DNA of 64,000 nucleotides from Phycisphaeraceae bacterium (GTDB lineage Bacteria > Planctomycetota > Phycisphaerae > Phycisphaerales > SM1A02): the NCBI GenBank assembly GCA_019636755.1, contig JAHBWZ010000006.1, positions 186,001-250,000 on the forward strand, in the 5' to 3' direction. The position numbers were made by a program, and so were the translations under genes. A model generated the notes under the pieces. It did not search any database. It saw only the letters and a list, made by a program, of their open reading frames with translations, and was not told the origin of the DNA. Position 1 is the first letter of the stretch. Each line of letters starts with the position of its first letter. This document shows positions 6,693-22,752 of the stretch, one piece after another.

Positions 6693-7934
6693 CTACCCGG
6701 CCATCACGGACCCCATCCGGAAGATCGGGAGCAGCAGTGCCAGCGCCACCCCGCCGATGACCACGCCCATGATCATGATCATGACCGGCTCGATGAACGC
6801 GGTGACCTGCTTGACCTCGGCATCGAGTTCCTGATCGGCAAACTCGGCAAGACGATCCATGACCTCAGCCAGCCGACCCGATCGCTCACCAGACGTGATC
6901 ATCGTTGACACGTTGGATGGAATGTACCCGGACTCGACAAATGCATCGCTCAGGTGACGTCCCTCCCGGACATCCCGCTCAACCCGGTCCCAGATGCGAT
7001 CGAACTCTGAGTTGTTCGTCACGCCGCGAACCAGCTCAATGATGTCGAGCAGGCTGACATTCGCCGCGAGAAGCGTGCCCATCGTCCGGCACGCACGGCT
7101 GATGTAGAGCTTGCGATACAGTCGACCGAGAACCGGAAGGTTGACACGCAGCCAGTCGATCCAGCGCCGTCCGGTCGGCCGGCGTGCGAATACCCATGCT
7201 GCAATCATGGCGCCGACCGCCAGCGGCAGATACCACTTCCACTGCGTTCCGGCGAATTCGCTCACCGCGAGAAGTGCGCGTGTCGGGCCAGGCAGCGCCG
7301 CGGCCTTCCCTGCGTAGATCGTTGCAAACTTCGGGAGAATCACCACCACGAGAAACGCGCTGAGTACGAGCGCGGCCCCGACCATGAACGCCGGATATGC
7401 GACGGCGCCCCGGATCTGCCGCGCGGTCTGCCGCTCCTTGCGCAGATACCGCGCGATTCGCCCCAGCATCATCCCCAGTGTTCCGGACGCTTCCGACGCG
7501 CGCAGGAGACTGATCATGATCCCCGGAAAGACGCCCGGCCATCTCTGCGCGGCTGTCGAGAACGTCTCGCCGTGCATGAGGTCGGCGCGCAACGCCTCGA
7601 AGACAGCCCGCTGCTCCGGCCGACGGACCTGTGCACAGTAGGCGCCAAGTGCCTCGGCCAGCGGCACGCCCGTCTCGAGCATGACTGACATCTGCTCACA
7701 GAAGACGACCACGTCGTCGCGCCGGATCGACTTTGCCCCGTGGTCCCGCCGGATCTGCGCCGAATCAAGGCGATCCTCATCGCGCCCCGACCTTGCCGTG
7801 ACGGAGACGACCGTACGCCCTTCGGCGCGAAGCCGTCTGCTGACCTCATGCGGATCGGCCGCCGGCATGGACCCGGCGATCATGTTCCCGCGCGGATCCC
7901 GCGCCCGGTAGTTGAAATTCCGTGTCGTCGACAT
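6693..7934 (-). CDS. pilC: Type IV pilus/type II secretion inner-membrane platform protein (PilC/GspF)
   Basis: This 413-residue platform protein works with the PilB ATPase to assemble pilin subunits. It has the usual duplicated GspF domain: the FCEQMSVMLETG motif near residue 85, a first membrane helix near 220-245 (AALVLSAFLVVVILP), a second near 265-285 and a C-terminal helix near 385-405. The protein has the usual length for the family. It is the last gene of the leftward pilus operon, and its ATG at 7934 is 4 nt from the end of pilB. The downstream hairpin at 6584-6614 is the likely operon end. Confidence 0.92.
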   Translation of the reverse strand: MSTTRNFNYRARDPRGNMIAGSMPAADPHEVSRRLRAEGRTVVSVTARSGRDEDRLDSAQIRRDHGAKSIRRDDVVVFCEQMSVMLETGVPLAEALGAYCAQVRRPEQRAVFEALRADLMHGETFSTAAQRWPGVFPGIMISLLRASEASGTLGMMLGRIARYLRKERQTARQIRGAVAYPAFMVGAALVLSAFLVVVILPKFATIYAGKAAALPGPTRALLAVSEFAGTQWKWYLPLAVGAMIAAWVFARRPTGRRWIDWLRVNLPVLGRLYRKLYISRACRTMGTLLAANVSLLDIIELVRGVTNNSEFDRIWDRVERDVREGRHLSDAFVESGYIPSNVSTMITSGERSGRLAEVMDRLAEFADQELDAEVKQVTAFIEPVMIMIMGVVIGGVALALLLPIFRMGSVMAG

Positions 7935-7938
7935 CGCG

Positions 7939-9672
7939 CTACCCCGCGGTCACCTGCAGGACTTCCTCCGCGGTCGTGAGGCCGCCCTTCACTTTCACCA
8001 TGCCGTCACTCCGGAGGCTGACGAAGCCGCTGCTGTGAACGATTGCCAGGATCTCGTGAAGTCCCGCTCCGCGCGCAATCGCGCCCATCGTCTCCTCGTT
8101 CGGGATCAGCATCTCGAAGATGCCGATCCGACCGGCGAACCCTGTTCCCCGGCAGCGTGCGCAGCCCTGCCCTCGCTGGAGTGTCTCCACCGGGCCGGCG
8201 TGCATTTCCACCACCGCACGCACCACCTCCTCGGGAACATAGCTGTCCTTGCAGTGCGGACAGATCTTCCGGACCAGGCGCTGGGCAAGCACACCCCGCA
8301 GCGTCGCCGCCACGAGATACGACTCGATTCCCATGTTGACCAGGCGGGTGACGGCACTCGGTGCATCGTTCGTGTGGAGCGTGGAGAACACCAGGTGACC
8401 GGTGAGCGCCGCCTGCGTGGCGATGATCGCGGTCTCCTCATCGCGGATCTCGCCGACCATGAGAATGTCCGGGTCCTGTCGGAGAATCGCCCGGAGCGCC
8501 ATGCTGAACGTGAATCCCGCCTTCTCGTTCACCTGTGACTGGTTGATCCCCGGGATATGGGCCTCCACCGGGTCCTCGACCGTCGAGATGTTGAGATGCT
8601 CCGAGTTGAGCATATTCAACACCGAATAGAGCGTCGTCGACTTTCCGGATCCGGTCGGACCGGTCACCAGGACCACGCCGTTCGGAAGGGAGACGACCGA
8701 CTTCCACGCCTCGAGCATCGATGCCGAGAACCCGAGCTTCTCCAGCGAGACGATCGTGTTCCGGTTGTCGATCACCCGGATCACCACCGTCTCCCCGAAC
8801 TTCCCCGGCATCGTCGACACCCGGAGATCGATCGGTCGCCCTTCCATCATGACGTGGATGTCGCCATCCTGCGGGACGCGACGCTCGGAAATGTCCAGGT
8901 TCGCCATGATCTTGATACGGCTCGCGATCGCCGCCTGCATCTGGTACGGCGGATGGAGCCGGTCATACAGCCGTCCATCCAGTCGGAACCGGATCCTGAG
9001 GTCGCGGTCCTCAGGTTCGATATGGATGTCTGAAGCGCCGTCCTGTACCGCGGAATAGAGCACATAGTTGACGAGTTTCACGACCGGGTTCTGTCCGGCG
9101 ATCTCCTCCAGGTCCGCGATCTCAGTCGCGGCCTTCTCCACGACGCTGAAGTCGGCATCGTCAATGTCCTCATAGATGTCGTCGATGACGAAGACATTGG
9201 CTGCGGGCAGATATGCCCGCAGCGCCGCGCTGATCTCCCCGGATGTCGCCACCGCGATCTGCACAAGATGACCGGTGAGTCGTCCGATCTCCTCGACCAG
9301 GTACATGTTGGCGGGCTCGGTAATCGCAACGGTGAGCACGCCCTGGACAAGGAACAGCGGAAGGACACTGTTCTCCTCGATGAACTCCCGCGGGAGTACC
9401 TCGATCACCTTGGGATCGGCGATTCGCGCCACCTGCGACACGAACGGAACGCCGTAGCCATCCGCCACGGCCTGGAGCACGTCCGCCTCGGTCGCGAGTC
9501 CGAGTTCGATGAGGATCTCACCGAGCAGCCGTCGCTTCCCACGGACGCGCTGATGTTCCAGCGCCTGCTGGAGCTGCTCGGCCGTGATCACCCCGCGGGA
9601 TACAAGCAGGTCGCCGATCTGAACACGGGGCACTGCGAAGGTCGATGCATGTCCGGATGCTGGCTGGATCAC
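7939..9672 (-). CDS. pilB: Type IV pilus/type II secretion assembly ATPase (PilB/GspE) with MshEN-like N-terminus
   Basis: The 577-residue cytoplasmic hexameric ATPase powers pilin or pseudopilin extrusion. Walker A is GPTGSGKS (338-345), the Asp box lies near 361-370, Walker B is LMVGE (404-408), the His box is STLHTNDA (430-437), and a zinc site is formed by C471, C474, C504 and C507. Residues 15-78 contain two tandem helix-loop repeats of the MshEN type, which binds cyclic-di-GMP in other proteins. The usual RLG of each repeat is QIG (18-20) and LLG (49-51) here, so binding is uncertain. The gene lies between the STAS gene and pilC. No pilT retraction ATPase is present in the window. Confidence 0.92.
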   Translation of the reverse strand: MIQPASGHASTFAVPRVQIGDLLVSRGVITAEQLQQALEHQRVRGKRRLLGEILIELGLATEADVLQAVADGYGVPFVSQVARIADPKVIEVLPREFIEENSVLPLFLVQGVLTVAITEPANMYLVEEIGRLTGHLVQIAVATSGEISAALRAYLPAANVFVIDDIYEDIDDADFSVVEKAATEIADLEEIAGQNPVVKLVNYVLYSAVQDGASDIHIEPEDRDLRIRFRLDGRLYDRLHPPYQMQAAIASRIKIMANLDISERRVPQDGDIHVMMEGRPIDLRVSTMPGKFGETVVIRVIDNRNTIVSLEKLGFSASMLEAWKSVVSLPNGVVLVTGPTGSGKSTTLYSVLNMLNSEHLNISTVEDPVEAHIPGINQSQVNEKAGFTFSMALRAILRQDPDILMVGEIRDEETAIIATQAALTGHLVFSTLHTNDAPSAVTRLVNMGIESYLVAATLRGVLAQRLVRKICPHCKDSYVPEEVVRAVVEMHAGPVETLQRGQGCARCRGTGFAGRIGIFEMLIPNEETMGAIARGAGLHEILAIVHSSGFVSLRSDGMVKVKGGLTTAEEVLQVTAG

Positions 9673-9684
9673 GGGTTCCTCCGC

Positions 9685-10020
9685 TCAGCGCAGGCTGCGC
9701 GCCGCCGACTCGATTGACTCATGCACGTCGAACTTCCGCTCCAGGCGGGTGACCGTGAGAATCCGGGAGACCGTATCGTCGAGGCCGACCAGGCGCAGCC
9801 TTCCTCCCTTCCGGTCCAACTGTGACGAGAGCCAGAGCAGCTTCTCGAGCCCTGCGGAGTCGACCAGGCCGACATGCGTCATGTCCAGCACTACGTGACG
9901 GATACCGGCATTGAAGCGGTCCTCGGCAGCTCGCCCGAACGCGTCCACCTGGTCCGCGGTAAGACTGCCGCTCATGGTCAGGACGCTGACAGGACCATGA
10001 TCCTCGTAGCTGACTTTCAT
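9685..10020 (-). CDS. STAS domain protein (anti-sigma factor antagonist-like)
   Basis: The 111-residue protein is a single STAS domain of the SpoIIAA type. The phosphorylatable serine is probably S55 in LVDSAGLEKL. Such proteins switch partners when phosphorylated by an anti-sigma or serine kinase. No such kinase or PP2C phosphatase is encoded nearby, so the partner is unknown. Its ATG overlaps the HD-GYP stop by 4 nt, so the two are translationally coupled. The position between the HD-GYP protein and PilB suggests a role in the same signalling chain, which is inference. Confidence 0.85.
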   Translation of the reverse strand: MKVSYEDHGPVSVLTMSGSLTADQVDAFGRAAEDRFNAGIRHVVLDMTHVGLVDSAGLEKLLWLSSQLDRKGGRLRLVGLDDTVSRILTVTRLERKFDVHESIESAARSLR

Positions 10021-11639
10021 CGTGCCGCTCCCGCACCGTCGCGGCGCATGTGTTCATCGATGAGTCGATCGAACTCGCTGAAGTCGAGTGCGAGAAACGC
10101 CGGCACGAGGTCCGGGTCGAACTGCGATCCCGCACACTTCTGCACTTCTGCGAGGACCTCAGCCCGCGACAGCCGGCTCCGGTAGGTGCGATTGCTGCTC
10201 ATCGCGTCGAATGAGTCTGCGAGGGCGATCAGGCGCGCAATGCGCGGGATCTGCTCGCCTGCAAGTCCCGACGGATACCCGCGTCCGTCCCAGCGCTCGT
10301 GGTGATGCAGCACGCCGGGAAGAACCGGACGGAAGTGCGGGATATCACGGAGAATCCTGTGCCCGATCTCCGGATGCCGTCGGATCCAGGCGAACTCCTC
10401 TTCCGTCAGCCGGCCTGGCTTGGTCAGCACCGCCTCCGGAACACCGATCTTCCCGACATCATGGACAAGGCCAGCCTTGTGCGCGATCGCAACATCCTCC
10501 TCAGGCAGTCCTGTCGCGGCCGCCAGGTCCCGTGTCAGGAGCGCGACACGCCGTGAGTGACCGAACGTGTAGGGGTCCTTCGCATCGATCGACGCGGTCA
10601 GCGCCTCGAGCGTGCCGACGATCGTCGCGTTGAGATCATCATAGAGAGCCGCGTTCTCGAGAAAGATCGCGGCATGACCCGCGGTAGCAGCCAGAAGCTT
10701 GAGATCGGACGAGCTGATTCTTGCACCGTCGCCCGTCTTCTCTCCGGCAACGAAGTGACCCAGCAGTGCCTCATCGCTTCCGATGATCGGCTGGACAAGG
10801 AGCGACGCCCCCAGCCCATCGGCGAGCTTCGACCCTGGGTCGCGTGCATCGACGACGAATGAGCCGCGATCCTCACCCGATGCCGCGAGATCCCGGAGAA
10901 ACCGGCGGATGACTGACGGCGGCGGTCCGTCGCCTGCGAAGATCGACCGGCCGCTCATGCGCTTGAGCCGGTCAGTATCATCCTGCAGGACCACGGCGAT
11001 CCATCGGAACGACAGCGTCTCGAAGAGTTCATCCGCTACGGTCGCGACGAACCGGTCCGGCTGCTCGACGACGGTCATGTTGCGGATCGTCCCGTAGAGG
11101 AGATTGATCTCCTCGTACGACTCGCCGAGTTCGCGGCCGATACTTTCCAGCTCCAGCGAAGCGGACTCGATGCGTGTCTCGTCCTCCACGAGATTCCGCA
11201 CGAGAGCCGCCAGTCGATCGCACTCGCCGGGATGCGCCGGTGGCAGCGAGAGGATCATCGTCCGCGTGGACTCGAGGTCCAGCCGTGCCGACTGACAGAG
11301 AGCATGCAGGAACTCCGACTCCACGATCTCGAGTGTCGGAATCGCGAGGATAGCGCTCAGAACCGGACGGCGGCGTCTCGGGATCACGATCGGATACAGT
11401 CGAAGTCCCGCGAACGGCTGCACCGGATCGGTCAGGCGCTGCTCCGACCACTGTTCGCGAAGGGATCCGATCGCCTGGCGTACCAGCGGCGAGCCGGTCA
11501 GCAGCCGGCGCAGCCGGTCGGTCATGCACTTCTCCGTCGGCAGGGTCATCGCCGGAAGGAGAATCAGACCGAGCCGGCGGACCCTGTCCTCCACGGCGAC
11601 GACGGCCGTCGGATCGATGACCTGCGCAGACGGTGTCAT
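10017..11639 (-). CDS. GAF and HD-GYP domain protein, probable cyclic-di-GMP phosphodiesterase
   Basis: This 540-residue soluble protein has an N-terminal region of about 180 residues of unknown type, a GAF-like sensor region (about 186-330) and a complete HD-GYP domain. The metal and catalytic signature is intact: H361, H393-D394 in LVHDVGKIG, HHHE (445-448), DGRGYP (451-456) and DSFDAM (475-480). The family hydrolyses cyclic-di-GMP to pGpG or GMP. The start ATG overlaps the response-regulator stop by 4 nt, and the stop overlaps the STAS start by 4 nt. It could lower cyclic-di-GMP under control of the neighbouring kinase and regulator and so affect the pilus ATPase. Confidence 0.88.
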   Translation of the reverse strand: MTPSAQVIDPTAVVAVEDRVRRLGLILLPAMTLPTEKCMTDRLRRLLTGSPLVRQAIGSLREQWSEQRLTDPVQPFAGLRLYPIVIPRRRRPVLSAILAIPTLEIVESEFLHALCQSARLDLESTRTMILSLPPAHPGECDRLAALVRNLVEDETRIESASLELESIGRELGESYEEINLLYGTIRNMTVVEQPDRFVATVADELFETLSFRWIAVVLQDDTDRLKRMSGRSIFAGDGPPPSVIRRFLRDLAASGEDRGSFVVDARDPGSKLADGLGASLLVQPIIGSDEALLGHFVAGEKTGDGARISSSDLKLLAATAGHAAIFLENAALYDDLNATIVGTLEALTASIDAKDPYTFGHSRRVALLTRDLAAATGLPEEDVAIAHKAGLVHDVGKIGVPEAVLTKPGRLTEEEFAWIRRHPEIGHRILRDIPHFRPVLPGVLHHHERWDGRGYPSGLAGEQIPRIARLIALADSFDAMSSNRTYRSRLSRAEVLAEVQKCAGSQFDPDLVPAFLALDFSEFDRLIDEHMRRDGAGAAR

Positions 11640-12037
11640 GCCGCCTCCGAGTTGCCCGACCGCGGCGCGTTCTCTGCGAGAATCTGCTCCACCCGGCGCA
11701 GGACCTCGCGCGGGCCGAACGGCTTGCTCATGACCTCCCGGATACCTGTTCCCGCGATCGCCTCCTCGGCGAGATTGAATCCCTGTGCGGTCAGCATGAT
11801 GATCGGAATGTGCGCTGTCGTCGGCTCTGCACGCAGCGCCCGCGCCAGCTCCAGACCGTTCCGGTATTCCATGTGCAGGTCGGTGATCACGAGATCCGGC
11901 CGTTCGCGGATGGCGACCTCTGTGCCTTCCTCGCCGTCAATGGCGGTCAGCACCTCGTGACCGGCGTTCCGGAGTTTGATGAGAAGCACCTGGACAATGT
12001 GCGCCTCATCATCGACCACCAGGATCCGATATCCCAT
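11636..12037 (-). CDS. Single-domain response regulator (CheY-like receiver)
   Basis: The 133-residue protein is a receiver domain with no output domain. Phosphoacceptor D53 lies in LVITDLHM, with acidic pair D9-D10, switch T83 and K105 in SKPFG. The start at 12037 is preceded by GGAGGAGCAGG, a strong Shine-Dalgarno. The frame extends upstream, but that extension lies antisense-like inside the kinase gene. It is probably phosphorylated by the adjacent histidine kinase. As it lacks DNA-binding capacity it may act by contacting the HD-GYP or STAS protein encoded downstream. Confidence 0.9.
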   Translation of the reverse strand: MGYRILVVDDEAHIVQVLLIKLRNAGHEVLTAIDGEEGTEVAIRERPDLVITDLHMEYRNGLELARALRAEPTTAHIPIIMLTAQGFNLAEEAIAGTGIREVMSKPFGPREVLRRVEQILAENAPRSGNSEAA

Positions 12038-12050
12038 CTCCTGCTCCTCC

Positions 12051-13511
12051 TCAAGCCGCCGTGCGCAGCCCGGCGTATCGCATCGGGATGCTGCATGTGA
12101 ACCGCGAGCCGAGTCCGAGCTTCGACTCGACCTCGATCTGTCCCCTGTGAACGGTCTCGATGATGTGCTTGCAGAGATTGAGGCCGAGACCTGTTCCCTT
12201 CGCGATCCGGCTGTAGTTCTCGATACGGAAGAATTTCTCGAAGACGCGGTCGATCGAATCCGGCGGAATTCCGAGTCCCGTGTCGGCAACCGAGAATACC
12301 ACCGTTCGCGTCAGGTTCTCCGAATCCGCGGTCACGGTCACGCGCCCGCCTTCAGGGGTGTACTTGACGGCGTTCGAGAGCAGGTTCAGGGCGACCTGGT
12401 ACAGCATGTCCTCGTCGCCCTCCACCGTAAGGTCGACATCGGAGATCCTCGAGATCAGCGTGATCTTCTTCTCCTGCGCCTGCGGGGAAAGAGTCTCCAC
12501 GGCGCGCGCCAGGACGCCCTTCATGTCGACGAGCGTCCTGGACACCTGGAGAATCCCGGCCTCGATCCTCGAGATGTTCAGCATGTTGTCGATGAGCCGG
12601 CCGAGCCGGTCGGACTCGTTGCGGATGATCTTGTAGAAGTCCACGCGGGACTCCTCATCCGCCGCCTCGCCGTCAAGAAGCATCTCGATGTAGGCGCGGA
12701 TCGATGTCAGTGGTGTGCGCAGCTCATGACTCGCCTTCGCAACGAAATCGGTCTTCAATTGCGAGACTTCCCGCTCCCGCGTCAGATCATGGAGCACGGT
12801 CACCACACCGGCGGAATCATTGTGAGCACCACGGACGGACGAGAGCGCGATGTCGCAGAGCATCCGCTCAGGCCGGTCGGAGCCGGTAATCGCATGTTCA
12901 ACCGTGCGCTGGGCGCCCGGCCCCGCCTCCCGGACATCCCGGATGAGCTGGCAGAGTTCGAGATCAGCGACGACCTCGGCAACAGGCCGGCGCATCGCGA
13001 TCTCAAGGCGGAAGGCGAGATCGCGCGCCGCCGCGGCGTTGGCCATGACCACCTCGTCGAAGGCGTTGGTCACGAGTACACCGTCCCGAAGCGCGTCCAG
13101 GACAGCCACGACGAGTTGCCTCTCCGTCTCCGCGACACGGTGTCGGATGCGGAGTTCTCTCGCCTCCGCCGCCAGACGCTGCTCACGCTCCGACCTCGCC
13201 GAGAGAGCGGACGTCGCCGCCGACGCCACCGGGCTGAGGACGCCGCCCGCACCGATCGTGCCCGGCCGCTCGGCAGCCGCTTCCTCGGAGATGCGCCGTG
13301 CCAGCCGGCCGGCACTCCGGGAGGTGAGTGCAAGCGCGAGCCCCTGGAGCACGAGTGATGCGATGACCACGGGCAGGCCGACCGTCAGGAGCGTCACCGG
13401 CCCCGCGCTCAGGCGCGCAGAGACTCCCGGTGCGACGAGATGGTGCAGCCCGACGGCGGCGGCTCCGACCGCAAACGCGAGCAGCAGACTGATCCAGACG
13501 GCTCTTGCCAC
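12051..13511 (-). CDS. Membrane sensor histidine kinase with PAS domain
   Basis: The 486-residue kinase has two membrane helices (about 5-25 and 36-62), a short cytoplasmic linker, a PAS-like domain (about 130-245), and HisKA and HATPase_c domains. H262 in KASHELRTPL is the phosphorylation site. The N box includes N376 and N380, the G1 box is DTGLGI (410-415) and the G2 box is GTGLGL (439-444). I chose the GTG at 13511 because GGAG lies 6 nt upstream and the first helix begins directly after it. Longer starts would overlap the upstream lipoprotein gene and add a non-family Arg/Pro-rich stretch. It has almost no periplasmic loop, so it probably senses a membrane or cytoplasmic cue. Confidence 0.88.
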   Translation of the reverse strand: MARAVWISLLLAFAVGAAAVGLHHLVAPGVSARLSAGPVTLLTVGLPVVIASLVLQGLALALTSRSAGRLARRISEEAAAERPGTIGAGGVLSPVASAATSALSARSEREQRLAAEARELRIRHRVAETERQLVVAVLDALRDGVLVTNAFDEVVMANAAAARDLAFRLEIAMRRPVAEVVADLELCQLIRDVREAGPGAQRTVEHAITGSDRPERMLCDIALSSVRGAHNDSAGVVTVLHDLTREREVSQLKTDFVAKASHELRTPLTSIRAYIEMLLDGEAADEESRVDFYKIIRNESDRLGRLIDNMLNISRIEAGILQVSRTLVDMKGVLARAVETLSPQAQEKKITLISRISDVDLTVEGDEDMLYQVALNLLSNAVKYTPEGGRVTVTADSENLTRTVVFSVADTGLGIPPDSIDRVFEKFFRIENYSRIAKGTGLGLNLCKHIIETVHRGQIEVESKLGLGSRFTCSIPMRYAGLRTAA

Positions 13512-13569
13512 GATGATCTCCGAGGATCCGCGATCGATCCCCGGATCGTGATCGCGCCCTTCAACCGGA

Positions 13570-14787
13570 TCAGTTGTCGGCTCGTGCCTGCAGGAACTGC
13601 ACCATGGATGCCTCGAGCCAGCGGGCATCCTGAGAAGATGGATCGCGTGCGACGGCCGTGCGGTATGCGTGGAGTGCATCCTGCGGACGTCCCGCCGCCT
13701 CGAATGCCCGTCCGAGAAGGATCAGAGCAGCGGTGCCGCTGGAGTCGCGATCGACCGCGCGCTGGAGCATCGGCAGTGCGGCCTCGGCCCGCCCCAGCGA
13801 AAGCTCGACCGCGCCTTCGAGCATCCACCCCTCCGGCCTGCCGGGGGCCAGTCGCTGGACGCGACGCGCCGCCTCGGACATCCGGGCACGATCGTCGATG
13901 TCCCACGAGAGCAGCCCCAGTTCGATCCAGGCGGAGGTGTCCGTCGGATTCTCGTGGACGATGTTCCGATAGCGTGCATGGGCCTCGTGAAGCTGACCCG
14001 TCTGCACGAGGCACCTGGCCTCGAGGACCGCGAGATCAGGCCGGACGCGTCCGATGCGCCGGCGCAGGCTCTCCGCCGTGGACACCGCTTCGTTGAACTG
14101 CTGCGCCGACCACTGGGCCCAGAGGTGCTCCTCGAGCAGCTGCGTGTTCTCAGGATCGAGCATCCGGGCCTGCAGGAGGAGCTCCGACGCGCGCCGCGGG
14201 TTGCCCTGCAGCATCTCCACCTGGGCCAGGAGCTGGAGCAGGACTGCACTGCTCTCGAAGAACCGGAGTCTCGACTCGACGAGCGCGCCGGCGCGATCGA
14301 CCTGCCCGGTCGAGAGAAGCATCTCCGCCGCCGCGACGAGGTACTGCAGGTTCTCCGGCTCGAGTTCCAGCGCCTTCTGATAGGCCGAGAGCGCCTCCTC
14401 GTCCCGTCGCCAGCGCTGGCAGACGATGCCGAGGTAGTACTGTGCCTCGGCCTCCGCTCCACCGAGTGCAATCGCTTCCGCGAACGCCTTTTCGGCGGCT
14501 TCGAGCCGATTGACCTCCAGCAGAATGCGCCCTCGCATCACGTGGAACATCCCGGCCCCCGGCGCCTGTGTGATCGCGTGGTCGATCTCCCGCAGCGCCT
14601 TCTCGAACTCGCCGGTCCCGTAGTACTGCCGGGCGCGCTCGTAGGTGAAGCTCGCCTGGAAGCCGTCGATGCGGGCACGGGCATCGGCTCTCGCCTCCTG
14701 GCCGGCACGGGTCGGGCCGGCGCAGCCTGCACCGAGGAGCATGACCGCGGCCACGAGGACGGACGACTGAAGCATGCGGATGATCAT
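13570..14787 (-). CDS. TPR-repeat lipoprotein
   Basis: The 405-residue protein has a lipoprotein signal peptide with lipobox LGAGC (Cys about 22) and roughly eight to nine TPR units from residue 50 to the end, for example YYLGIVCQRWRRDEEALSAY. TPR lipoproteins such as PilF/PilW act as pilotins for the secretin in type IV pili. Its place directly after the secretin gene fits that role, but it is longer than a typical pilotin. It begins the lipoprotein-kinase-regulator-HD-GYP-STAS stretch. A GGAG lies about 13 nt before the ATG. The function is inferred from repeats and context only. Confidence 0.8.
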   Translation of the reverse strand: MIIRMLQSSVLVAAVMLLGAGCAGPTRAGQEARADARARIDGFQASFTYERARQYYGTGEFEKALREIDHAITQAPGAGMFHVMRGRILLEVNRLEAAEKAFAEAIALGGAEAEAQYYLGIVCQRWRRDEEALSAYQKALELEPENLQYLVAAAEMLLSTGQVDRAGALVESRLRFFESSAVLLQLLAQVEMLQGNPRRASELLLQARMLDPENTQLLEEHLWAQWSAQQFNEAVSTAESLRRRIGRVRPDLAVLEARCLVQTGQLHEAHARYRNIVHENPTDTSAWIELGLLSWDIDDRARMSEAARRVQRLAPGRPEGWMLEGAVELSLGRAEAALPMLQRAVDRDSSGTAALILLGRAFEAAGRPQDALHAYRTAVARDPSSQDARWLEASMVQFLQARADN

Positions 14788-14822
14788 GGTGATTCGACTC
14801 CGGTCTCTGAGTAGGGAGGAAT

Positions 14823-14852
14823 GGCGGTCGCGGAGTCCCCTCCGCGACCGCC
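14823..14852 (-). terminator. Strong intra-operon hairpin after the secretin gene
   Basis: A perfect 12-bp stem (GGCGGTCGCGGA at 14823-14834 with TCCGCGACCGCC at 14841-14852) closes a 6-nt loop, 40 nt beyond the secretin stop. There is no T-tract on the minus strand, so it may attenuate or protect the upstream message rather than end it. Confidence 0.6.
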
Positions 14853-14892
14853 GTCGTGTGTTCTCTCTCTTCTCCCCGCCCGGCCGACTCCG

Positions 14893-16950
14893 TCACTCGT
14901 CGATGAAGCCGGCGCCGGGCACCTCGACGGTCGTCATCTCCGGCTGCCGGTCCTCGCCGGCGTCGTCCGCGAAGTCCTCGGCGAACGGCGACCACCGGCC
15001 CGCGCCCGCTGCGAGGAAATACTCGTGAATGAACCGGTTCATGAACGCCCGTCGCTCCCGCTCCGCCGCATCAGCCGGCGTCGTCGGGTTCGTGGCGGGC
15101 ACCGGGCCTGTCGATGACACCGCGCCGGCCATGCGTTCGCCGCTCATCCCGGTGCCGCCCGGGATCGCCTGCGGCATGAATGGCTGCGGCGTCAGTCGGC
15201 TCTGGATGTCGCCGCTCGTGGCGGCTCCCAGCCGCCCGCGGATTGCGCGCTCGATGATGCTTCGCTCGAAGTGCGAAGTCTCGTCACCGAGCAGTCGCTG
15301 CCGCAGTCGCGCGATTTCGGGCTGCTTCGAGTTGAGCCGCAGGGAGTTGTTGATGTGATAGACGGCCTGGTCCACATCACCCCGCTCGAACGACTCGAGC
15401 GCGCGGGCGTTGTGGTTCGACGTCTGCCGCTCCCGGCTGAACGGAAGGAGTCCCTGACGTGCGCCGAGCATGACCTTGTCGGTGTAGTAGGCTGCTTCGG
15501 ACCCGATCGACCAGAGAATGTCATCCTTCACGATCGTCGGGGTGATCATGAAGATGATCTCGTCCCGCGCCACGTCGTCGTCATGCCCTCGGAAGGCCGC
15601 GCCGAGCACCGGAATGTCACCGAGCACGGGAACCTGCCGGCGCGAGATGTTGTTCCGCTCCTTGTACAGGCCGCCGAGCACGAGCGTCTGACCGTCCTTG
15701 ATCCGGACGTTGGTCGTCAGTTCATTCGTGAGTTCGTCCGGGATCGTGGTCTCCCGGCCGGTCTGATCGGTGACACGGCGCAGGCTGGCCTCGCTGACGC
15801 GCGGCCGGAGTTCCATGCGGATCATGTCGTTCTGTGCGATGAACGGGCGGAAGGTGAGCTGGATGCCCGTGTCGAGGAACTCGACGCGCTGCGTCGCCGC
15901 GGTCTCGGTGACCGATGTCGAGAGGTACCCGATCTTCGCACCGACCAGGATCTCGGCGCGCTGCCGGTTCAGGCACATGATCTTGGGCCGCGAGAGGACG
16001 GTGTTGTCGGTCACGTCGTCCAGCAGCCGAAGGAATCCCGCGACGTCGCCACGGACCACGCCCAGCTTGAATCCGCCGGCGCCGGCCGTGTTGCCGACCG
16101 TCGACTGCAGGCCCAGTGCCCGATTGTCTCCGGGAACGAAGCCGTCGGACCGCGTCGCCTTGGTGTCGGCGCCTGACTCGTTGCCGAGCAGCAGGTTGTT
16201 GACCGCCGTCAGCGGGTTCGTCAGATTGGTGAAGTTGAGGCTGGAAAGGGCCGCGAAGTCGACGCCGAATGCGTTCTTCTCCGTCAGGTTGCTCTGGAGG
16301 ATGGTCGCCTCGACCAGCACCTGCCGCGGCGCCGTGTCGATGTCCGCGATGAGTCCGGCGATCCGCTCCAGATTCTCTGGGAAGTCGTTGACCACGACCC
16401 GCGCCGTGAACGCGTAGGAGTCCGTCCCGCCGGCGCTCACGCTCGGGGCGAAGCCCTCGGCCACGTCGCCTCTCGCGACGGCCTTGCCGCCATCGCTGAG
16501 GAGCGGTTCGATCATCTCGAGCGCGTCCTTCGCGGAAAGATAGTCCAGTTCGTAGATGCGCGACTCGCGCCGGCGCTTCCTGGCCTCCATCTCCTCCAGC
16601 TCGGTGAGCGTGTAGATGTAGATGAAGTTGCCCTCTGACCGGTAGCCGTACCCGTTGACATCGAGGATCGCGTGGAGCGCCTCATCGAGCGAGACATCAA
16701 ACAGGTTCGCGTTGATCGTTGCAGAGACGTTCCGTGACGTGATGATGTTCTTCTCGAACTGGATCGCCAGCATGGCGAGTACCTGGCCGAGATCGGTGTC
16801 CTGCACCGCCAGGGTCACGGACTGCTGTGTGCCGCCGCGCGCGGCCCCGCCGGCCTGTCCGAATGCCACGGGCGTCGACGTCGCGAGTACGAGCGCCGTT
16901 CCCACGCCGGCAAGCCGGCCGAAGAGTCTGGTTCGACGGTTCTGGTTCAT
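14893..16950 (-). CDS. pilQ: Secretin (PilQ/GspD family) with unusual C-terminal extension
   Basis: This 685-residue outer-membrane secretin forms the pilus or secretion gate. It has a signal peptide (residues 1-31, ending VAFG), an STN-like domain (about 44-112), an N1-type domain (about 125-205) and the secretin barrel domain (about 205-480), which includes VPVLGDIPVLGAAF and the end motif EIIFMITPTIV. After the barrel comes an unusual tail of about 190 residues with one TPR-like helix pair (ARALESFERGDVDQAVYHI) and a charged, acidic end. An AGGAGAG Shine-Dalgarno precedes the ATG. It is the last member of the conserved pilM-N-O-P-Q block. Confidence 0.9.
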   Translation of the reverse strand: MNQNRRTRLFGRLAGVGTALVLATSTPVAFGQAGGAARGGTQQSVTLAVQDTDLGQVLAMLAIQFEKNIITSRNVSATINANLFDVSLDEALHAILDVNGYGYRSEGNFIYIYTLTELEEMEARKRRRESRIYELDYLSAKDALEMIEPLLSDGGKAVARGDVAEGFAPSVSAGGTDSYAFTARVVVNDFPENLERIAGLIADIDTAPRQVLVEATILQSNLTEKNAFGVDFAALSSLNFTNLTNPLTAVNNLLLGNESGADTKATRSDGFVPGDNRALGLQSTVGNTAGAGGFKLGVVRGDVAGFLRLLDDVTDNTVLSRPKIMCLNRQRAEILVGAKIGYLSTSVTETAATQRVEFLDTGIQLTFRPFIAQNDMIRMELRPRVSEASLRRVTDQTGRETTIPDELTNELTTNVRIKDGQTLVLGGLYKERNNISRRQVPVLGDIPVLGAAFRGHDDDVARDEIIFMITPTIVKDDILWSIGSEAAYYTDKVMLGARQGLLPFSRERQTSNHNARALESFERGDVDQAVYHINNSLRLNSKQPEIARLRQRLLGDETSHFERSIIERAIRGRLGAATSGDIQSRLTPQPFMPQAIPGGTGMSGERMAGAVSSTGPVPATNPTTPADAAERERRAFMNRFIHEYFLAAGAGRWSPFAEDFADDAGEDRQPEMTTVEVPGAGFIDE

Positions 16951-16986
16951 GTCTTGGTGCTCTCCTGCTCACCCGTCCTGACGCTG

Positions 16987-17580
16987 TCAGGGAATCGGGC
17001 TGCGCATCTTCAGTTCGAATCGATGGCCCTCATGCTCCAGGGTCACCGACCGATGTCCCACCTCAATCAGCAGGAATCGCCGATCACTCCCGCGGCCCGC
17101 CGGGACACTCGTCCCGACCGAATAGGCCTGCCCGCCGATCAGGGCGAGCGATGCCGTCGGCATGACGGCGTCGAGAGTGAGCGAATCAACAAGCATCTGG
17201 AGCTGCCTTCGGAGGTTGGCCTCAACCTCCATCTGATTCTCGGCCGTTTCAGGGCCTGACTTGGGCTCATTCCTGAACGCACCCGGAGCCGGCTCCGGAA
17301 GGGGAAACTGCCGCGACGGAATGCGGAACGCATCGCGCATCGGGAACTCATCGAGCCGGACTTCGACGCGCTGCACCTCGACGGGGCCGGTCTGCACGGG
17401 CGCTCCTGCGGTACGGGCGGCCCCGCCCTCGGGAACGGCGATCGCCATGCGCGGCATGTTGGTCACGATGATCAGGCGTGCCCAGAGCAGGAGCGCTACG
17501 GAGAGCGCCACGCAGAGCATGCCGAATTTGCGCCGGTCCGCGGTCGCACGGATCCAGAACCTGCGGAGTCGAAGCATCAT
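16987..17580 (-). CDS. PilP/GspC-like inner-membrane alignment protein
   Basis: The 197-residue protein has an N-terminal membrane helix (about 21-41) and a periplasmic part ending in a small beta domain. The pattern there (YSVGTSVPAG, then FLLIEVGHRSVTLEHEGHRFEL) matches the homology region of PilP and GspC proteins, which bind the secretin. No lipobox is visible, unlike classical PilP, and the single helix is closer to GspC. Its position between the PilO-like gene and the secretin supports the call. Its ATG overlaps the pilO stop by 4 nt. Confidence 0.75.
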   Translation of the reverse strand: MMLRLRRFWIRATADRRKFGMLCVALSVALLLWARLIIVTNMPRMAIAVPEGGAARTAGAPVQTGPVEVQRVEVRLDEFPMRDAFRIPSRQFPLPEPAPGAFRNEPKSGPETAENQMEVEANLRRQLQMLVDSLTLDAVMPTASLALIGGQAYSVGTSVPAGRGSDRRFLLIEVGHRSVTLEHEGHRFELKMRSPIP

Positions 17581-18164
17581 GGCCGGTCCGACCCTCCTGC
17601 GTCCGCGTAGATGACGTCGAAGCCGATCGAGAAGTGCACGGGCGGAGAGCCCGGTCCATCGATCGCCCGATCCGCGGTCGCCCGGACGGAGGTCACCCGA
17701 AGGAGACGGTCCATGCGTTCAATCGAGCGCAGCAGTGCGAACCCGCTGTCGAACGAGCCTCGCAGTTCGACCGTCAGCGGTATCGCCTGCTCCGGCCATC
17801 CTTCTTCACCGGTGGCACGGGTCGCGGCGCCGGTCGTGAAGTTCTGATCGAGGACCAGGACGCCGTCCACGGGGAGCGCAAGGCGACCGACGATGTCCGC
17901 GGTATCCGCTGTCGGTGGAACCGTCCGGCAGGACCGGGCGATGAGCCGTCGCTTCTCAGCGAGTTCCAGCGAGAGCCGTCGCTCGTCGTCGGCGATGACT
18001 GCCGAGATCCCCACGCGATGCGAAAGCGACCGGATCTCCCGCCTGATCAGCACGCTCTCCCGATAAGCCGGCCAGGCGGCGGCGAGGCCCCCGAGCAGCA
18101 CGATGCCGATGCCGGTGACGGCCGCGCCCAGGCGGTGGCGCATCTCGGTGCTCATGCGGATCAC
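17577..18164 (-). CDS. pilO: PilO-like pilus alignment protein
   Basis: The 195-residue bitopic protein has a membrane helix at about 14-31, a coiled-coil-prone stretch (REIRSLSHRVGIS to about 75) and a ferredoxin-like periplasmic part. Sequence conservation in PilO is low, so the call depends on length, topology and gene order (pilM-N-O-P-Q). Start and stop both overlap neighbouring genes by 4 nt (ATGA). It likely forms a heterodimer with the PilN-like protein. Confidence 0.75.
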   Translation of the reverse strand: MIRMSTEMRHRLGAAVTGIGIVLLGGLAAAWPAYRESVLIRREIRSLSHRVGISAVIADDERRLSLELAEKRRLIARSCRTVPPTADTADIVGRLALPVDGVLVLDQNFTTGAATRATGEEGWPEQAIPLTVELRGSFDSGFALLRSIERMDRLLRVTSVRATADRAIDGPGSPPVHFSIGFDVIYADAGGSDRP

Positions 18165-18826
18165 GAGCGACCTCCTCCGGCCGAGGCGATCGCCATCGGA
18201 GCGATGCGATCCAGGTCAATCCGGATAGTGACCCGGAAATCACGCGCCGGGACGCCACGCACCAGCCGGGTCCGGCTGAAGTCAAGCGTGACGGTCTCGG
18301 TGAACTCAAGAGCCTGCAGTTCCGCCACGAATCCGGCGACCGCACGATCATCCGGCGCAAGCCCGGAGATCTCGATGCGTGCAGGCCGTGCCGGTGCCGA
18401 TGCCGTCGCACCGGCCGGCGCCGCCGCGGTCCGCGCCGAGCGCGCAGTCCGTCGGCCGGTCGCCTCGACGTCGATGCGATCGATGGCGGCGCCCTCGGGA
18501 AGTCGGTTGGCGATCGTCGCGATCACGCCGGCGAACTCGATCGGCTGGGCAATCGCGCGGTACCGCGCCAGGGCACGATCCAGGTCCGACGACTCGGACC
18601 GGATCTGCGCGATCCGGCGCTCCATGCGGATCACCTCGTCGTGCTTCGCCTGCGCCGTCGCGAGTGACTCGCGGAGTCCTCCCCGCAATACGCGGGCGTG
18701 GACCGTCAGGGTGCTCAGCACCACGACGCCCGCGATGATCGCGGCGACATACCGACCCGTCCTGAGGCCGGCATTCGTACGCTCATGTACGGAGGACGGC
18801 AGAAGGTTGATCGACTGTCGGATCAT
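18161..18826 (-). CDS. pilN: PilN-like pilus alignment protein
   Basis: The 221-residue protein begins with the hallmark INLLPSSVHE (residues 6-15), the short cytoplasmic tail by which PilN binds PilM. A membrane helix follows (about 27-46), then a coiled coil and a periplasmic ferredoxin-like domain. An Ala/Pro-rich insert lies at about 125-150. It overlaps pilM by 4 nt upstream and pilO by 4 nt downstream. Confidence 0.88.
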   Translation of the reverse strand: MIRQSINLLPSSVHERTNAGLRTGRYVAAIIAGVVVLSTLTVHARVLRGGLRESLATAQAKHDEVIRMERRIAQIRSESSDLDRALARYRAIAQPIEFAGVIATIANRLPEGAAIDRIDVEATGRRTARSARTAAAPAGATASAPARPARIEISGLAPDDRAVAGFVAELQALEFTETVTLDFSRTRLVRGVPARDFRVTIRIDLDRIAPMAIASAGGGRS

Positions 18827-20004
18827 GCCGCCCCCCTTCTCATCTGCGCCGCCGCCGCCGCATCCGCCCCGCGCCGTACCCGGCTCGTCTCCAGACCGCG
18901 CAGGGCGAGTCCGGCCGCAACGGCCCAGGACGACATCGGCCCCTGGTCCCGACCCAGCCGCGCATGCAGCGCGGATCGGAGCGATGTGAGCGTTGCCGTC
19001 GGAGCGTCCAGGTCGACGGGCAGGCCGGTGGCCTCGGCGAGCATTTCGAGCAGCCCGGGCTCCCGACCGTTGCCGCCGGTCACGATCATGCTGCGCGGCG
19101 GCTCACCGCGGAAGGTGACGTTGTAGTAGCGGAGGCAGAGTACGACCTCGCGGATGACCTCGGCGAGAAGTCCGCGCGACGCGTCGAACACGGCGCGCTC
19201 GACGCTCTCATCCATGTGAATCGCCTCGTCGGCGGGCCTGGAGGAGTCATCGAGCGCTGTCCCGCGCTCGAATCGGGCGATGCGCGCGGCGCGAAGTTCC
19301 GCAGCGGACTCCGGCTCGATGTCCAGTCGTTCGCGGACCTTCTCATCGAGATCCCGACCGCCCACGGAGATCTGCTTCGCGAACGCGATCGATCCGCCGC
19401 GCAGCACGATCAGCGTCGACGCGGAGTGCCCGACGTCGAGGATCACCCGGACATCGCGTTCATCGGCCTCCCGCCGATGCCGTCGGCTGAACAGGCGCGT
19501 GAGCGCGAAGAACCCGGTCTCCACGGCGACGGGATGAAGCCCCGCCGCGAGCAGGGTCTCGACCGGGGGCATCAGGTCATCGTGCGCGACCGCGACGATG
19601 ATGATCTCCTCTCGCTTCTCGTTACCACCGGCACTCAGACCGGTCCGGATGAAGTCCGCCTCGAGCCCCTGGCGATCGAGGCCGAACCGCTCTGCCGCCT
19701 CCCACCGTGCCGCCTCGCGCAGTTCGTCATCCGACATGGCCGGCAGCCGCACGGACTGGAGCCGGACGACTTCACGCGGGAGACTCAGGACGCAGCGACG
19801 ACCCCGGAATCCCGCGTGCGCGAGGAGCGACTCGAGCCGGTCCGCGGACGGCAGACCGCTGCCTCCGGGCGTCCGCGGGAGCATGGCGGCCCCGACGACG
19901 CGCAGACCGGAGGAGGCGGTGCGCAGCTGGAGCACGCGCAGACCGACAGCGCCGATGTCGAAGCCGATGGGTCCGCACTGTCCGCCGAGCAGTCCGCCGA
20001 GCAC
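18823..20004 (-). CDS. pilM: PilM-like actin-fold ATPase of the pilus
   Basis: The 393-residue cytoplasmic protein has the actin-like phosphate-1 motif (IGFDIGAVGLRVLQL, residues 13-27) and a second nucleotide motif (VILDVGHSASTLIVL, about 190-204) followed by the GGRDLDE stretch. PilM forms a cytoplasmic ring that links the PilB/PilC motor to PilN. The C-terminus has an Ala-rich tail. It heads the translationally coupled pilM-N-O-P block and lies 36 nt downstream of a prepilin gene. Confidence 0.9.
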   Translation of the reverse strand: MLGGLLGGQCGPIGFDIGAVGLRVLQLRTASSGLRVVGAAMLPRTPGGSGLPSADRLESLLAHAGFRGRRCVLSLPREVVRLQSVRLPAMSDDELREAARWEAAERFGLDRQGLEADFIRTGLSAGGNEKREEIIIVAVAHDDLMPPVETLLAAGLHPVAVETGFFALTRLFSRRHRREADERDVRVILDVGHSASTLIVLRGGSIAFAKQISVGGRDLDEKVRERLDIEPESAAELRAARIARFERGTALDDSSRPADEAIHMDESVERAVFDASRGLLAEVIREVVLCLRYYNVTFRGEPPRSMIVTGGNGREPGLLEMLAEATGLPVDLDAPTATLTSLRSALHARLGRDQGPMSSWAVAAGLALRGLETSRVRRGADAAAAAQMRRGAA

Positions 20005-20040
20005 GTCTGTGTCTCTCCTGGTCTCTTCCGCTGCCGTCGT

Positions 20041-20619
20041 TCAGGGATCGATGCGGGAAACGGTGATCTTCCCGGTGAACGCCGCGATGCTCACGCGGTA
20101 GACGTCGTCGTTCACGCCGATGTCGATCGTCCCGCCGAGACCCGGCAGCCCGCCCTCCCGGACGGTGCCGCCCATCTCGTCGTAGACGACGAAACCGTTC
20201 TCGCCGTCTATCTGCACGTCGAGGATGCGGACACCGGTGAACCGGCTGTCCGCGTCGAACCGGACGACGTATTCGCCGAGCGTCCCGGGCGGGGAAAGCG
20301 GATCGCGGATCCAGTCGGCGAGCGCGGGGTCCAGCGCAAGGGCGTAGTCCGCCTCGGTGACACGCGCGAGGCCGTACCCGCTGCCGTCGTCGAAGAACTC
20401 CACGCGCCGCAGTTCCTGTCGCGCCAGCGCGTCGGCCTGAGCGAACGTCATGTCCGCCACGAGACGTCGGACCGCGGCCTGCGCGCGCATGCTGTCCCGA
20501 CCGACGATGTTCGGGATGAGCAGCGACGCCGCAAGTCCGAGCAGGCCCACGACAAGCAGCAGCTCGACAAGCGTGTAGCCTCGCCGATTTCCTGCCCCTG
20601 GCGTGAACGACGTGCTCAT
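20041..20619 (-). CDS. Prepilin-like protein (GspH/minor pseudopilin type)
   Basis: The 192-residue protein has a type III prepilin leader, cut before Tyr in RRG/YTLVELLLVV, followed by the usual N-terminal helix with Glu5. The body is beta-rich and lacks the short GspG-type calcium loop, so it resembles GspH-like minor pseudopilins. I chose the ATG at 20619 because GGGAGGAG precedes it. An alternative ATG at 20682 overlaps the upstream stop by 4 nt but gives a very long leader. Confidence 0.85.
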   Translation of the reverse strand: MSTSFTPGAGNRRGYTLVELLLVVGLLGLAASLLIPNIVGRDSMRAQAAVRRLVADMTFAQADALARQELRRVEFFDDGSGYGLARVTEADYALALDPALADWIRDPLSPPGTLGEYVVRFDADSRFTGVRILDVQIDGENGFVVYDEMGGTVREGGLPGLGGTIDIGVNDDVYRVSIAAFTGKITVSRIDP

Positions 20620-20678
20620 GAGGACTCCTCCCGCCGATCCGGTGTCAGGCCGATCGGGCCACGGAACGGACTTCGCAC

Positions 20679-21053
20679 TCAATCGCCGCTGATGCGGGCC
20701 TCGATCTCCTGGATGTTCGTCACCTCGACGCGCATCCGGCCGGTGGAGAGCTGGCGGTTCGTCGCCTCAAGGCTCTTCTGGATCGCCCGGAGCGACTGGA
20801 TCATCTCCAGGCGCTGCGCTGCCGCATTCGGGACTGAACCGTCACGATCGCCCGCCTGCGCGTGCGCCTCGGAGGCGAAACTGCCACGATCCGCGACCTG
20901 TGTCCAGATGAGACAGGCCACGAGCACGGCGTTGATCGTGAGAATGATGCTCAGGAAGCCGGGTCGGCCGCCTGAAGCACGACAGGCGTCACCCTGATCC
21001 GGGCTCCGTCGTGGTGAATCCGCCTGAGGACTGTCCTCGCGCATGGCTCGCAC
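20679..21053 (-). CDS. Small single-pass membrane protein of the pilus operon
   Basis: The 124-residue product is not a recognised family. It has a basic, Ser/Arg-rich N-terminus, one membrane helix (about 33-52) and a periplasmic part with a coiled-coil-like stretch (about 75-110). It is embedded between two pilus genes with 21 and 59 nt spacing, so it is probably an accessory component of the same machine. Confidence 0.65.
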   Translation of the reverse strand: MRAMREDSPQADSPRRSPDQGDACRASGGRPGFLSIILTINAVLVACLIWTQVADRGSFASEAHAQAGDRDGSVPNAAAQRLEMIQSLRAIQKSLEATNRQLSTGRMRVEVTNIQEIEARISGD

Positions 21054-21074
21054 TCCCGCGTCGGCCGCAGGAGG

Positions 21075-21758: not shown

Positions 21759-21768
21759 GCTTCCTCGC

Positions 21769-22215
21769 TTACTCGGCGAGCACCATGCCCGCATCGTCAA
21801 TCGCGTACAGGCGCGCCCGCGCCGTACTCCAGTACCAGCCGTCCGAGATCGCGGCGCCGGATGGATCACCCGGGTTTGCCGGGCCGGCCGCCACGCCGTG
21901 CGCCGAGGCGCGGAGCGGATTCGCCGGAGGCGTCATCAGGAAGCCGTCGGCCAGAAGTTCATCCCAGCCCGTGCCGTCGGCAACCCCGGGCGGCACAGTG
22001 CCGTCATGGACGATCCGATAGCGCTCGATGGTCTGGCGCAGGATCTGGAGCTGCCTCGAGACGGAGACCGCACGGGCCTCCGTCGACGCATCCGAGAACC
22101 GCGGGATGACGATTGCGGCGAGGATGCCCAGGAGGCTCACCACGATGAGCAGTTCAATGAGAGAAAAGCCCCGGATCCCGTTCACCCGGCGTGCGGTCGC
22201 GATTCCCCTCGTCAT
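21769..22215 (-). CDS. Prepilin (second PilA/GspG-like pilin)
   Basis: The 148-residue protein has the cleavage motif RG/FSLIELLIVV and the long N-terminal helix with Glu5. It is related to the neighbouring major pilin over its length: both have SVQSQLQTVR/SVSRQLQILR-type helices, a GW-D-L motif and an end with YAID-D-G-V. The start at 22215 gives a 16-residue leader. The ATG at 22236 is also possible but lies only 7 nt from a strong hairpin. It is probably a minor pilin or alternative subunit. Confidence 0.85.
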   Translation of the reverse strand: MTRGIATARRVNGIRGFSLIELLIVVSLLGILAAIVIPRFSDASTEARAVSVSRQLQILRQTIERYRIVHDGTVPPGVADGTGWDELLADGFLMTPPANPLRASAHGVAAGPANPGDPSGAAISDGWYWSTARARLYAIDDAGMVLAE

Positions 22216-22243
22216 TCGTCTGCACTCGCTCGACATGTGAAAT

Positions 22244-22273
22244 GGGGCGCCGGCGCTTCCGCGTCGGCGCCCC
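22244..22273 (-). terminator. Attenuator-like hairpin after the major pilin gene
   Basis: GGGGCGCCG (22244-22252) pairs perfectly with CGGCGCCCC (22265-22273). On the minus strand it lies 53 nt after the pilin stop and is followed by ATTTC. It probably limits read-through or protects the pilin mRNA so that pilin is made in excess over the rest of the operon. Confidence 0.6.
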
Positions 22274-22326
22274 GTGTGTTCAGGCTCCACGATCATCAGC
22301 CGATCGACGATCGCGGCAGATCACGA

Positions 22327-22752
22327 TCAGAAGTCCAGGACGTTGCCGTCCGCGTCGATCGCGTACATGACGCGGCGACCGGTGTGCCACATCCAGCCGT
22401 CGGTCGCAGCGCCGCCCGCGGCGTTGCCCGGCTCGATCGCGCCGACCACGATGCCCGTGGCGTTGCTGCGCATCGCGTTGCGCGGCTCGGCCATCAGGTA
22501 GTTGCCGTTGACGAGCTGATCCCAGCCGTTGGCGTTGAAGTCCGGATACGAGCCGTTCTGAACGCGGAAGAGCTCCACCTGGCCGCGCACGGTCTGGAGC
22601 TGGCTCTGCACGCTGCTCGCCTGCGCATCCTCGGAGGCGCTGGTGAACTGCGGGATGACGATCGCGGCAAGGATGCCGAGGATCACGACGACGATCAGGA
22701 TTTCGATCAGCGTGAAAGCACGATTCGTGGTTCGCTTGACCATGGGTTGCAT
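22327..22752 (-). CDS. Major type IV pilin/type II pseudopilin (PilA/GspG-like)
   Basis: The 141-residue prepilin has a short leader cut in NRA/FTLIEILIVVVILGI. Position -1 is Ala rather than Gly, which is less common. Glu5 and the N-terminal helix are intact. The mature part has the GspG-like pattern with YPDFNANGWDQLVNGNYL and a C-terminal MYAIDADGNVLDF. As the first gene of the leftward operon, followed by a stabilising hairpin, it is the best candidate for the main subunit. An AAGGAG lies just before the first ATG; an in-frame ATG at 22743 is the alternative start. Confidence 0.88.
   Translation of the reverse strand: MQPMVKRTTNRAFTLIEILIVVVILGILAAIVIPQFTSASEDAQASSVQSQLQTVRGQVELFRVQNGSYPDFNANGWDQLVNGNYLMAEPRNAMRSNATGIVVGAIEPGNAAGGAATDGWMWHTGRRVMYAIDADGNVLDF

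Follow-up and report, generated by a model that had tools for sequence, protein, structure and literature searches.

Gene organization of the pilus locus

The window analyzed here is a stretch of 64,000 nucleotides (nt), bases 186001-250000 of contig C17, from the 4.1 Mb genome (20 contigs) of a Phycisphaeraceae bacterium. It carries a run of type IV pilus genes with a signalling cassette inserted between the secretin gene and pilB, the gene of the extension motor. Based on Pfam searches of the open reading frames of the window, the genes on the minus strand are ordered as pilins and pseudopilins, PilM, PilN, PilO and PilP (the latter two by position), secretin, a tetratricopeptide repeat (TPR) protein, a histidine kinase (HK), a response regulator (RR), a GAF-HD-GYP protein, a STAS protein, PilB and PilC. 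All genes that the initial annotation had named between the secretin gene and pilB are indeed found on this strand with the domains claimed for them.

The cassette opens with a membrane histidine kinase of the PnpS/PhoR type with PAS-HisKA-HATPase organization (12051-13511; PF00512, PF02518). Its start is probably the GTG at 13511, giving a protein of 486 amino acids, rather than the ATG at 13679, which lies inside the TPR gene. The kinase gene is followed by those of a single-domain receiver of 133 amino acids (11636-12037; PF00072, 4.2e-20), a predicted GAF-HD-GYP phosphodiesterase with an extra N-terminal domain (10017-11639; PF13487, 3.1e-38) and a SpoIIAA/RsbV-like STAS protein with S55 as phospho-site serine (9685-10020; PF01740, 2.1e-18). 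Directly downstream lie the extension ATPase PilB, with an MshEN-type N-terminal domain at about residues 16-156 (7939-9672; PF00437, PF05157), and the platform protein PilC with two copies of PF00482 (6693-7934; 7.4e-59). The three tight joints reported initially are present, i.e., a 13-nt gap between HK and RR and 4-nt ATGA overlaps at RR/HD-GYP and HD-GYP/STAS. STAS and pilB are separated by 12 nt, and pilB and pilC by 4 nt.

The TPR gene (13570-14787, minus strand) is joined more loosely, at 105 nt from the secretin gene and 58 nt from the kinase gene. A terminator-like scan of the gap between secretin and TPR genes (14788-14892, minus strand) revealed a perfect 13-bp G+C hairpin at 14821-14854 (-50.5 kcal/mol, z -3.5), which is possibly a terminator or attenuator splitting the gene run, or an RNA-stability element; Rfam, tRNA and sigma-70 promoter scans gave no match. 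The TPR protein has TPR matches in Pfam, a signal- or lipoprotein-like N-terminus and similarity to PilW (TIGR02521, 72.5 bits) and Tgl (NF033762), both under cut-off. Given its looser spacing, the hairpin and the PilW/Tgl similarity, we no longer count it as a member of the signalling unit; it is more likely a secretin pilotin of the PilW/Tgl type.

The remaining genes of the run, all on the minus strand, encode the pilus itself. They comprise a major pilin-like protein with an N-methylation motif and T2SSG-like features (22327-22752; PF07963, 1.2e-07; PF08334), a second pilin-like gene (21769-22296, with its true start probably at about 22193; PF07963) and a pseudopilin-like gene (20041-20682; PF07963) that is kept before pilM in relatives. 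PilM (18823-20004; PF11104, 6.1e-21; TIGR01175, 107.6 bits with a cut-off of 133) is followed by PilN (18161-18826; PF05137, 1.5e-05), whose gene has 4-nt overlaps with its neighbors. The PilO-like (17577-18164) and PilP-like (16987-17580) proteins have no Pfam match and are assigned by their position only, which is kept in relatives. The last gene before the TPR gene encodes a secretin of the PilQ/GspD type (14893-16950; PF00263, 2.1e-42; TIGR02515, 213 bits with a cut-off of 284). The co-occurrence of PilM/N/O-type alignment proteins, secretin, PilC, PilB and pilins identifies the system as type IVa pilus (T4aP) machinery, and the NCBIfam scores of PilM, PilQ and PilB, all under the curated cut-offs, indicate a divergent member. 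Four PilT-family (retraction) ATPases score over cut-off in the host genome, none of them linked to the pilus gene run. Together with about 10 GspE/PilB-type ATPases they make up a large set of secretion or pilus motors.

Conservation of the cassette

Relatives were searched mainly within the Planctomycetota. Gene starts in these relatives were set by rule, and the counts rest on metagenome assemblies of varying completeness and on order-level, class-level and public-genome locus sets that overlap. The string HK-RR-HD-GYP-STAS-pilB follows the secretin in 30 of 33 informative order-level pilus loci (40 regions were fetched, the remaining seven being contig ends or a second locus), and the full string recurs in 16 of 20 regions from the class-level search. 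To scan the named public genomes, only the GAF portion of the HD-GYP protein was used, since the conserved stretches of a full HD-GYP alignment are common to all HD-GYPs and the STAS alignment offers no sufficiently conserved stretch; here, 51 of 60 Phycisphaerae loci carry HK-RR-HD-GYP-STAS-pilB and most others are cut by contig ends. The most constant neighbors are STAS and PilB, with the STAS gene immediately upstream of pilB in 46 of the 47 class- and phylum-level genomes that have a PilB orthologue.

The spacing is conserved as well. Median distances across relatives are -4 nt for HD-GYP/STAS (n = 49), -4 nt for RR/HD-GYP (n = 54), 10 nt for STAS/pilB (n = 49), 15 nt for HK/RR and 18 nt for pilB/pilC, versus 71 nt between secretin and TPR and 51 nt between TPR and HK. 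Because the gene order is kept even where HD-GYP identity is only 40-55%, it is conserved far beyond chance. The comparison of gene order in other Phycisphaerae, proposed with the initial annotation, thus shows that linkage to pilus genes holds across the class. A cassette unlinked to pilus genes, which had been named as the outcome that would contradict the annotation, was not encountered, as the lone alternative placement of the RR-HD-GYP pair adjoins a second pilus locus. One Phycisphaerae genome has a gene for a GGDEF-EAL protein shortly after pilC (L194:12175-14394, plus strand).

Outside the phylum, the HD-GYP scan retrieved RR-HD-GYP in Nitrospirota, where no neighboring pilus genes were recognized. 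In six Gemmatimonadota loci (L252, L256, L259-L261, L266) a STAS gene stands directly before a GAF-HD-GYP gene, again with no pilus genes recognized nearby; these neighbors are possibly a separate pair of their own.

Fusion, enzyme exchange and a second pilus locus

A single genome encodes receiver and GAF-HD-GYP protein as one in-frame fusion that keeps both active sites intact (L057:1652-3826, minus strand). On the strength of this natural fusion, the lone receiver of the other genomes most likely acts on the HD-GYP protein. In planctomycete families beyond the class, a GAF-GGDEF diguanylate cyclase whose active site reads RYGGEEF takes the place between RR and STAS (L153-L157), while STAS-pilB stays where it is. 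Another planctomycete family even combines HK, receiver, HD-GYP and GGDEF before STAS-PilB (L167:1776-10101, minus strand). Such an exchange of HD-GYP and GGDEF in one slot points to cyclic di-GMP (c-di-GMP) rather than to a chance neighbor, and the eight GGDEF domains of the host genome also count for a role of this messenger.

Seven genomes (L286-L291, L293) possess a second pilus locus, organized as HK-STAS-PilB-PilC-PilM-PilN, with an RR-HD-GYP pair nearby on the opposite strand. Its PilB belongs to a different lineage that groups with L167 in the tree, and its STAS protein groups likewise, at moderate support in a tree which, as for the receivers, derives from a short alignment with weak deep branches. 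Since STAS and PilB of the second locus group alike, the association of STAS with PilB seems to predate the split of the two PilB lineages. The HD-GYP protein of this locus, by contrast, is nested among the order-level HD-GYPs of the first locus (branch 100/99; the placement of the L167 HD-GYP, on a long branch, is uncertain), indicating that the RR-HD-GYP pair was acquired later as a copy from the first locus. The fusion, the exchange of enzymes in the slot and the uptake of RR-HD-GYP by a second locus are all new with respect to the initial annotation.

The durability of the STAS-PilB adjacency also fits another reading, in which the STAS protein is a direct partner of the PilB motor that acts as a clutch and forms the core of the unit, with the c-di-GMP enzymes working alongside it or on different targets. 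The adjacency is the most durable of the cassette, being kept in the second PilB lineage and in lineages with neither HD-GYP nor GGDEF (L148-L152, L158-L162), and the STAS tree broadly mirrors that of PilB. In addition, no RsbW-type kinase of the host genome is to spare, as each of the two is paired with a STAS of its own. The model for such a clutch would be MlaB on MlaF, where a STAS protein is likewise encoded with an ATPase. The similarity to MlaB is weak (NF033618, 27 bits, under cut-off; ranks 35-50 in the fold search) and MlaF, unlike PilB, is an ABC ATPase. To our knowledge, no STAS-PilB interaction has been described. As the phospho-site serine and the SpoIIAA-like fold suit partner switching by a kinase equally well, we give the clutch only a minor, though not negligible, share of our confidence.

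Active sites and the partner of the STAS protein

All four signalling proteins retain their functional residues. The HD-GYP protein carries the HDxGK and HHExxDGxGYP signatures, and HDxGK, HHE and DGxGY are invariant in 41 of 41 orthologues. The best PDB match of its structure model (predicted local distance difference test (pLDDT) 81.5, predicted template modelling score 0.50) is the GAF-HD-GYP phosphodiesterase PmGH (4mcw), which is matched across both the GAF and HD-GYP domains; it differs from PmGH in its extra N-terminal domain and its paired receiver. The protein is predicted to be a c-di-GMP phosphodiesterase. The H box histidine and the N and G (ATP) boxes of the kinase are conserved in 34 of 34 orthologues, and the acid pocket, D53, T83 and K105 of the receiver in 39 of 39.

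The Asp-Ser site of the STAS protein is present in all 33 orthologues. In a wider set of 95 STAS proteins it was recognized by pattern in 85, and by eye the serine is kept in the other ten. The protein scores 62.9 bits against TIGR00377 (cut-off 53.45), and its structure model (pLDDT 95.6) matches best with SpoIIAA bound to SpoIIAB (template modelling score 0.92). It thus has the make-up of a SpoIIAA/RsbV-type antagonist, namely a STAS-only protein with a SpoIIAA fold and a phospho-serine.

Classical partner switching would make the STAS protein an anti-anti-sigma factor, as SpoIIAA/RsbV, for a sigma factor of pilus or surface genes. Family score, fold and invariant serine all agree with this, and the host genome encodes two RsbW-type kinases and seven SpoIIE-type phosphatases. 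However, neither an RsbW-type kinase nor a phosphatase or sigma factor is seen in the cassette, and both RsbW-type kinases adjoin a STAS gene of their own (C17:79057/79503 and C18:18254/18800). The lack of an obvious kinase of its own favors the use of a shared kinase or a direct role on PilB, and we consider the sigma-factor circuit the least probable of the readings discussed here. The earlier description of the STAS protein as a partner-switch protein consequently stands for its fold, family and conserved serine, and lacks a partner kinase in the cassette.

A proposed control unit for the pilus extension motor

In this study, we propose that HK-RR-HD-GYP-STAS-PilB-PilC is an ancient, vertically inherited control unit of a T4a-like pilus extension motor. 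The membrane kinase would sense a signal and phosphorylate the lone receiver, which in turn would dock on and gate the GAF-HD-GYP protein. The latter would remove c-di-GMP near the motor, and the MshEN-type domain of PilB would read the c-di-GMP level and set pilus extension. The STAS protein, its translation keeping step with that of enzyme and motor, may bind PilB or bridge the HD-GYP protein to PilB, and its binding would be switched by phosphorylation of Ser55 through a STAS kinase. The model builds on what the sequence shows, namely the order of the genes and their coupling in translation, the depth to which both are conserved, intact catalytic sites, the fusion of RR to HD-GYP, the swap of enzymes in one slot and the re-recruitment by a second pilus. 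We hold local c-di-GMP control of PilB, gated by HK and RR and with STAS as a phospho-switched partner, to be slightly more probable than all else taken together. Comparative genomics lends strong support to the core idea of the initial annotation that a two-component system, together with a c-di-GMP enzyme and a STAS protein, controls the pilus motor locally, with the exception of the TPR protein as one of the signalling parts.

The receptor in this model would be PilB itself. That MshEN domains serve PilB-type ATPases as c-di-GMP receptors is proven (PMC5013675, PMC11656802). The PilB N-terminus scores 57.1 bits against the c-di-GMP motif model NF053729 (cut-off 38) and aligns with the N-terminal domains of MshE and PilF. 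The PDB entries closest to the protein are PilB structures. Compared with the MshE contacts (PMC5013675), L10, G11, L25, L29 and Q32 of motif I or close equivalents are kept, with Q32 in 32 of 32 covering order-level sequences. Binding of c-di-GMP by PilB is thus plausible. An N-terminal domain of this family is shared with the MshEN-type extension ATPases of Vibrio (MshE), Myxococcus (PilB) and Thermus (PilF). The PilB described here differs from these in its degenerate second motif and in the dedicated c-di-GMP enzyme that is co-encoded, whereas Vibrio MshE appears to follow bulk c-di-GMP (PMC11656802).

Several observations weigh against c-di-GMP control of PilB as proposed. R9 of motif I is variable in the class, though arginine in the ten sequences from sister groups; in motif II, R38 is replaced by leucine and Q61 is lost; and the spacer between the motifs has seven residues, two more than the usual five, so that two complete 24-residue motifs are not present. 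Given the degenerate motif II and the variable R9, binding by these PilBs may be weak or absent. Furthermore, the slot for the c-di-GMP enzyme is empty in five loci that read HK-RR-STAS-PilB (L148-L152), and only STAS-PilB is left in two others (L159, L162). Finally, in three of the 33 order-level loci (L053, L063, L066) RR-HD-GYP follows the secretin without STAS-pilB. The pilus clusters of these three stop after the HD-GYP gene, without STAS, pilB and pilC, and a search of the rest of their genomes gave no close pilB orthologue.

The direction of signalling could also be reversed, with the pilus as sensor instead of target. The kinase would then read the state of the pilus or surface contact, and the HD-GYP protein would alter whole-cell c-di-GMP, comparable to PilO-SadC of P. 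aeruginosa. The kinase is indeed membrane-bound, with its gene next to those of the pilus, and signalling from pilus to c-di-GMP exists elsewhere (PMC11656802). Yet, both the strict STAS-PilB coupling and the enzyme-free HK-RR-STAS-PilB lineages are left unexplained, and we consider this arrangement unlikely. Returning to control of the motor, a more far-reaching version, which we hold to be less likely than not, would see the STAS phospho-switch bind the extension ATPase directly and, commanded by the receiver, bring interchangeable c-di-GMP enzymes to it, be they hydrolase, synthase or both. Inherited across the planctomycete phylum, this would constitute a new class of motor control.

Relation to known systems and outlook

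Among the closest described systems is PdeK-PdeR with FimX/PilZ of Xanthomonas, where a two-component system also drives a c-di-GMP phosphodiesterase acting on PilB (PMC11656802). There, the response regulator itself carries the EAL domain, which acts via FimX and PilZ, whereas a lone receiver, a separate GAF-HD-GYP protein and a STAS protein are encoded here inside the pilus genes. The cassette has no EAL-bearing regulator, and the receiver is fused to the HD-GYP protein in one genome only. A stand-alone STAS protein, HmpV, is also part of the HmpU/V/W motility locus of Nostoc punctiforme, its direct target not being established (PMC8256260). That system has a dedicated kinase and phosphatase, neither of which is seen in this cassette, where STAS is instead coupled to pilB. 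A 2024 review of PilB control covers PdeK-PdeR, MshE and FimX/PilZ and mentions neither HD-GYP nor STAS (PMC11656802). In the open-access literature, i.e., leaving subscription papers and preprints out of scope, we found no description of planctomycete pilus control. We therefore regard the cassette as a variant within c-di-GMP control of pilus motors that falls outside the PdeK-PdeR and classical partner-switch families, and the findings together point to a mode of pilus-motor control that is for the most part undescribed.

What confines c-di-GMP to a single machine has yet to be explained, and little is understood of what the N-terminal domain of PilB does. Having a receiver, a switch protein and a motor tied together, and an enzyme that is swapped from destroyer to maker of c-di-GMP, these loci provide matched natural pairs for in vitro tests. 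For the Planctomycetota themselves, the cassette would offer a first handle on the control of their pili.

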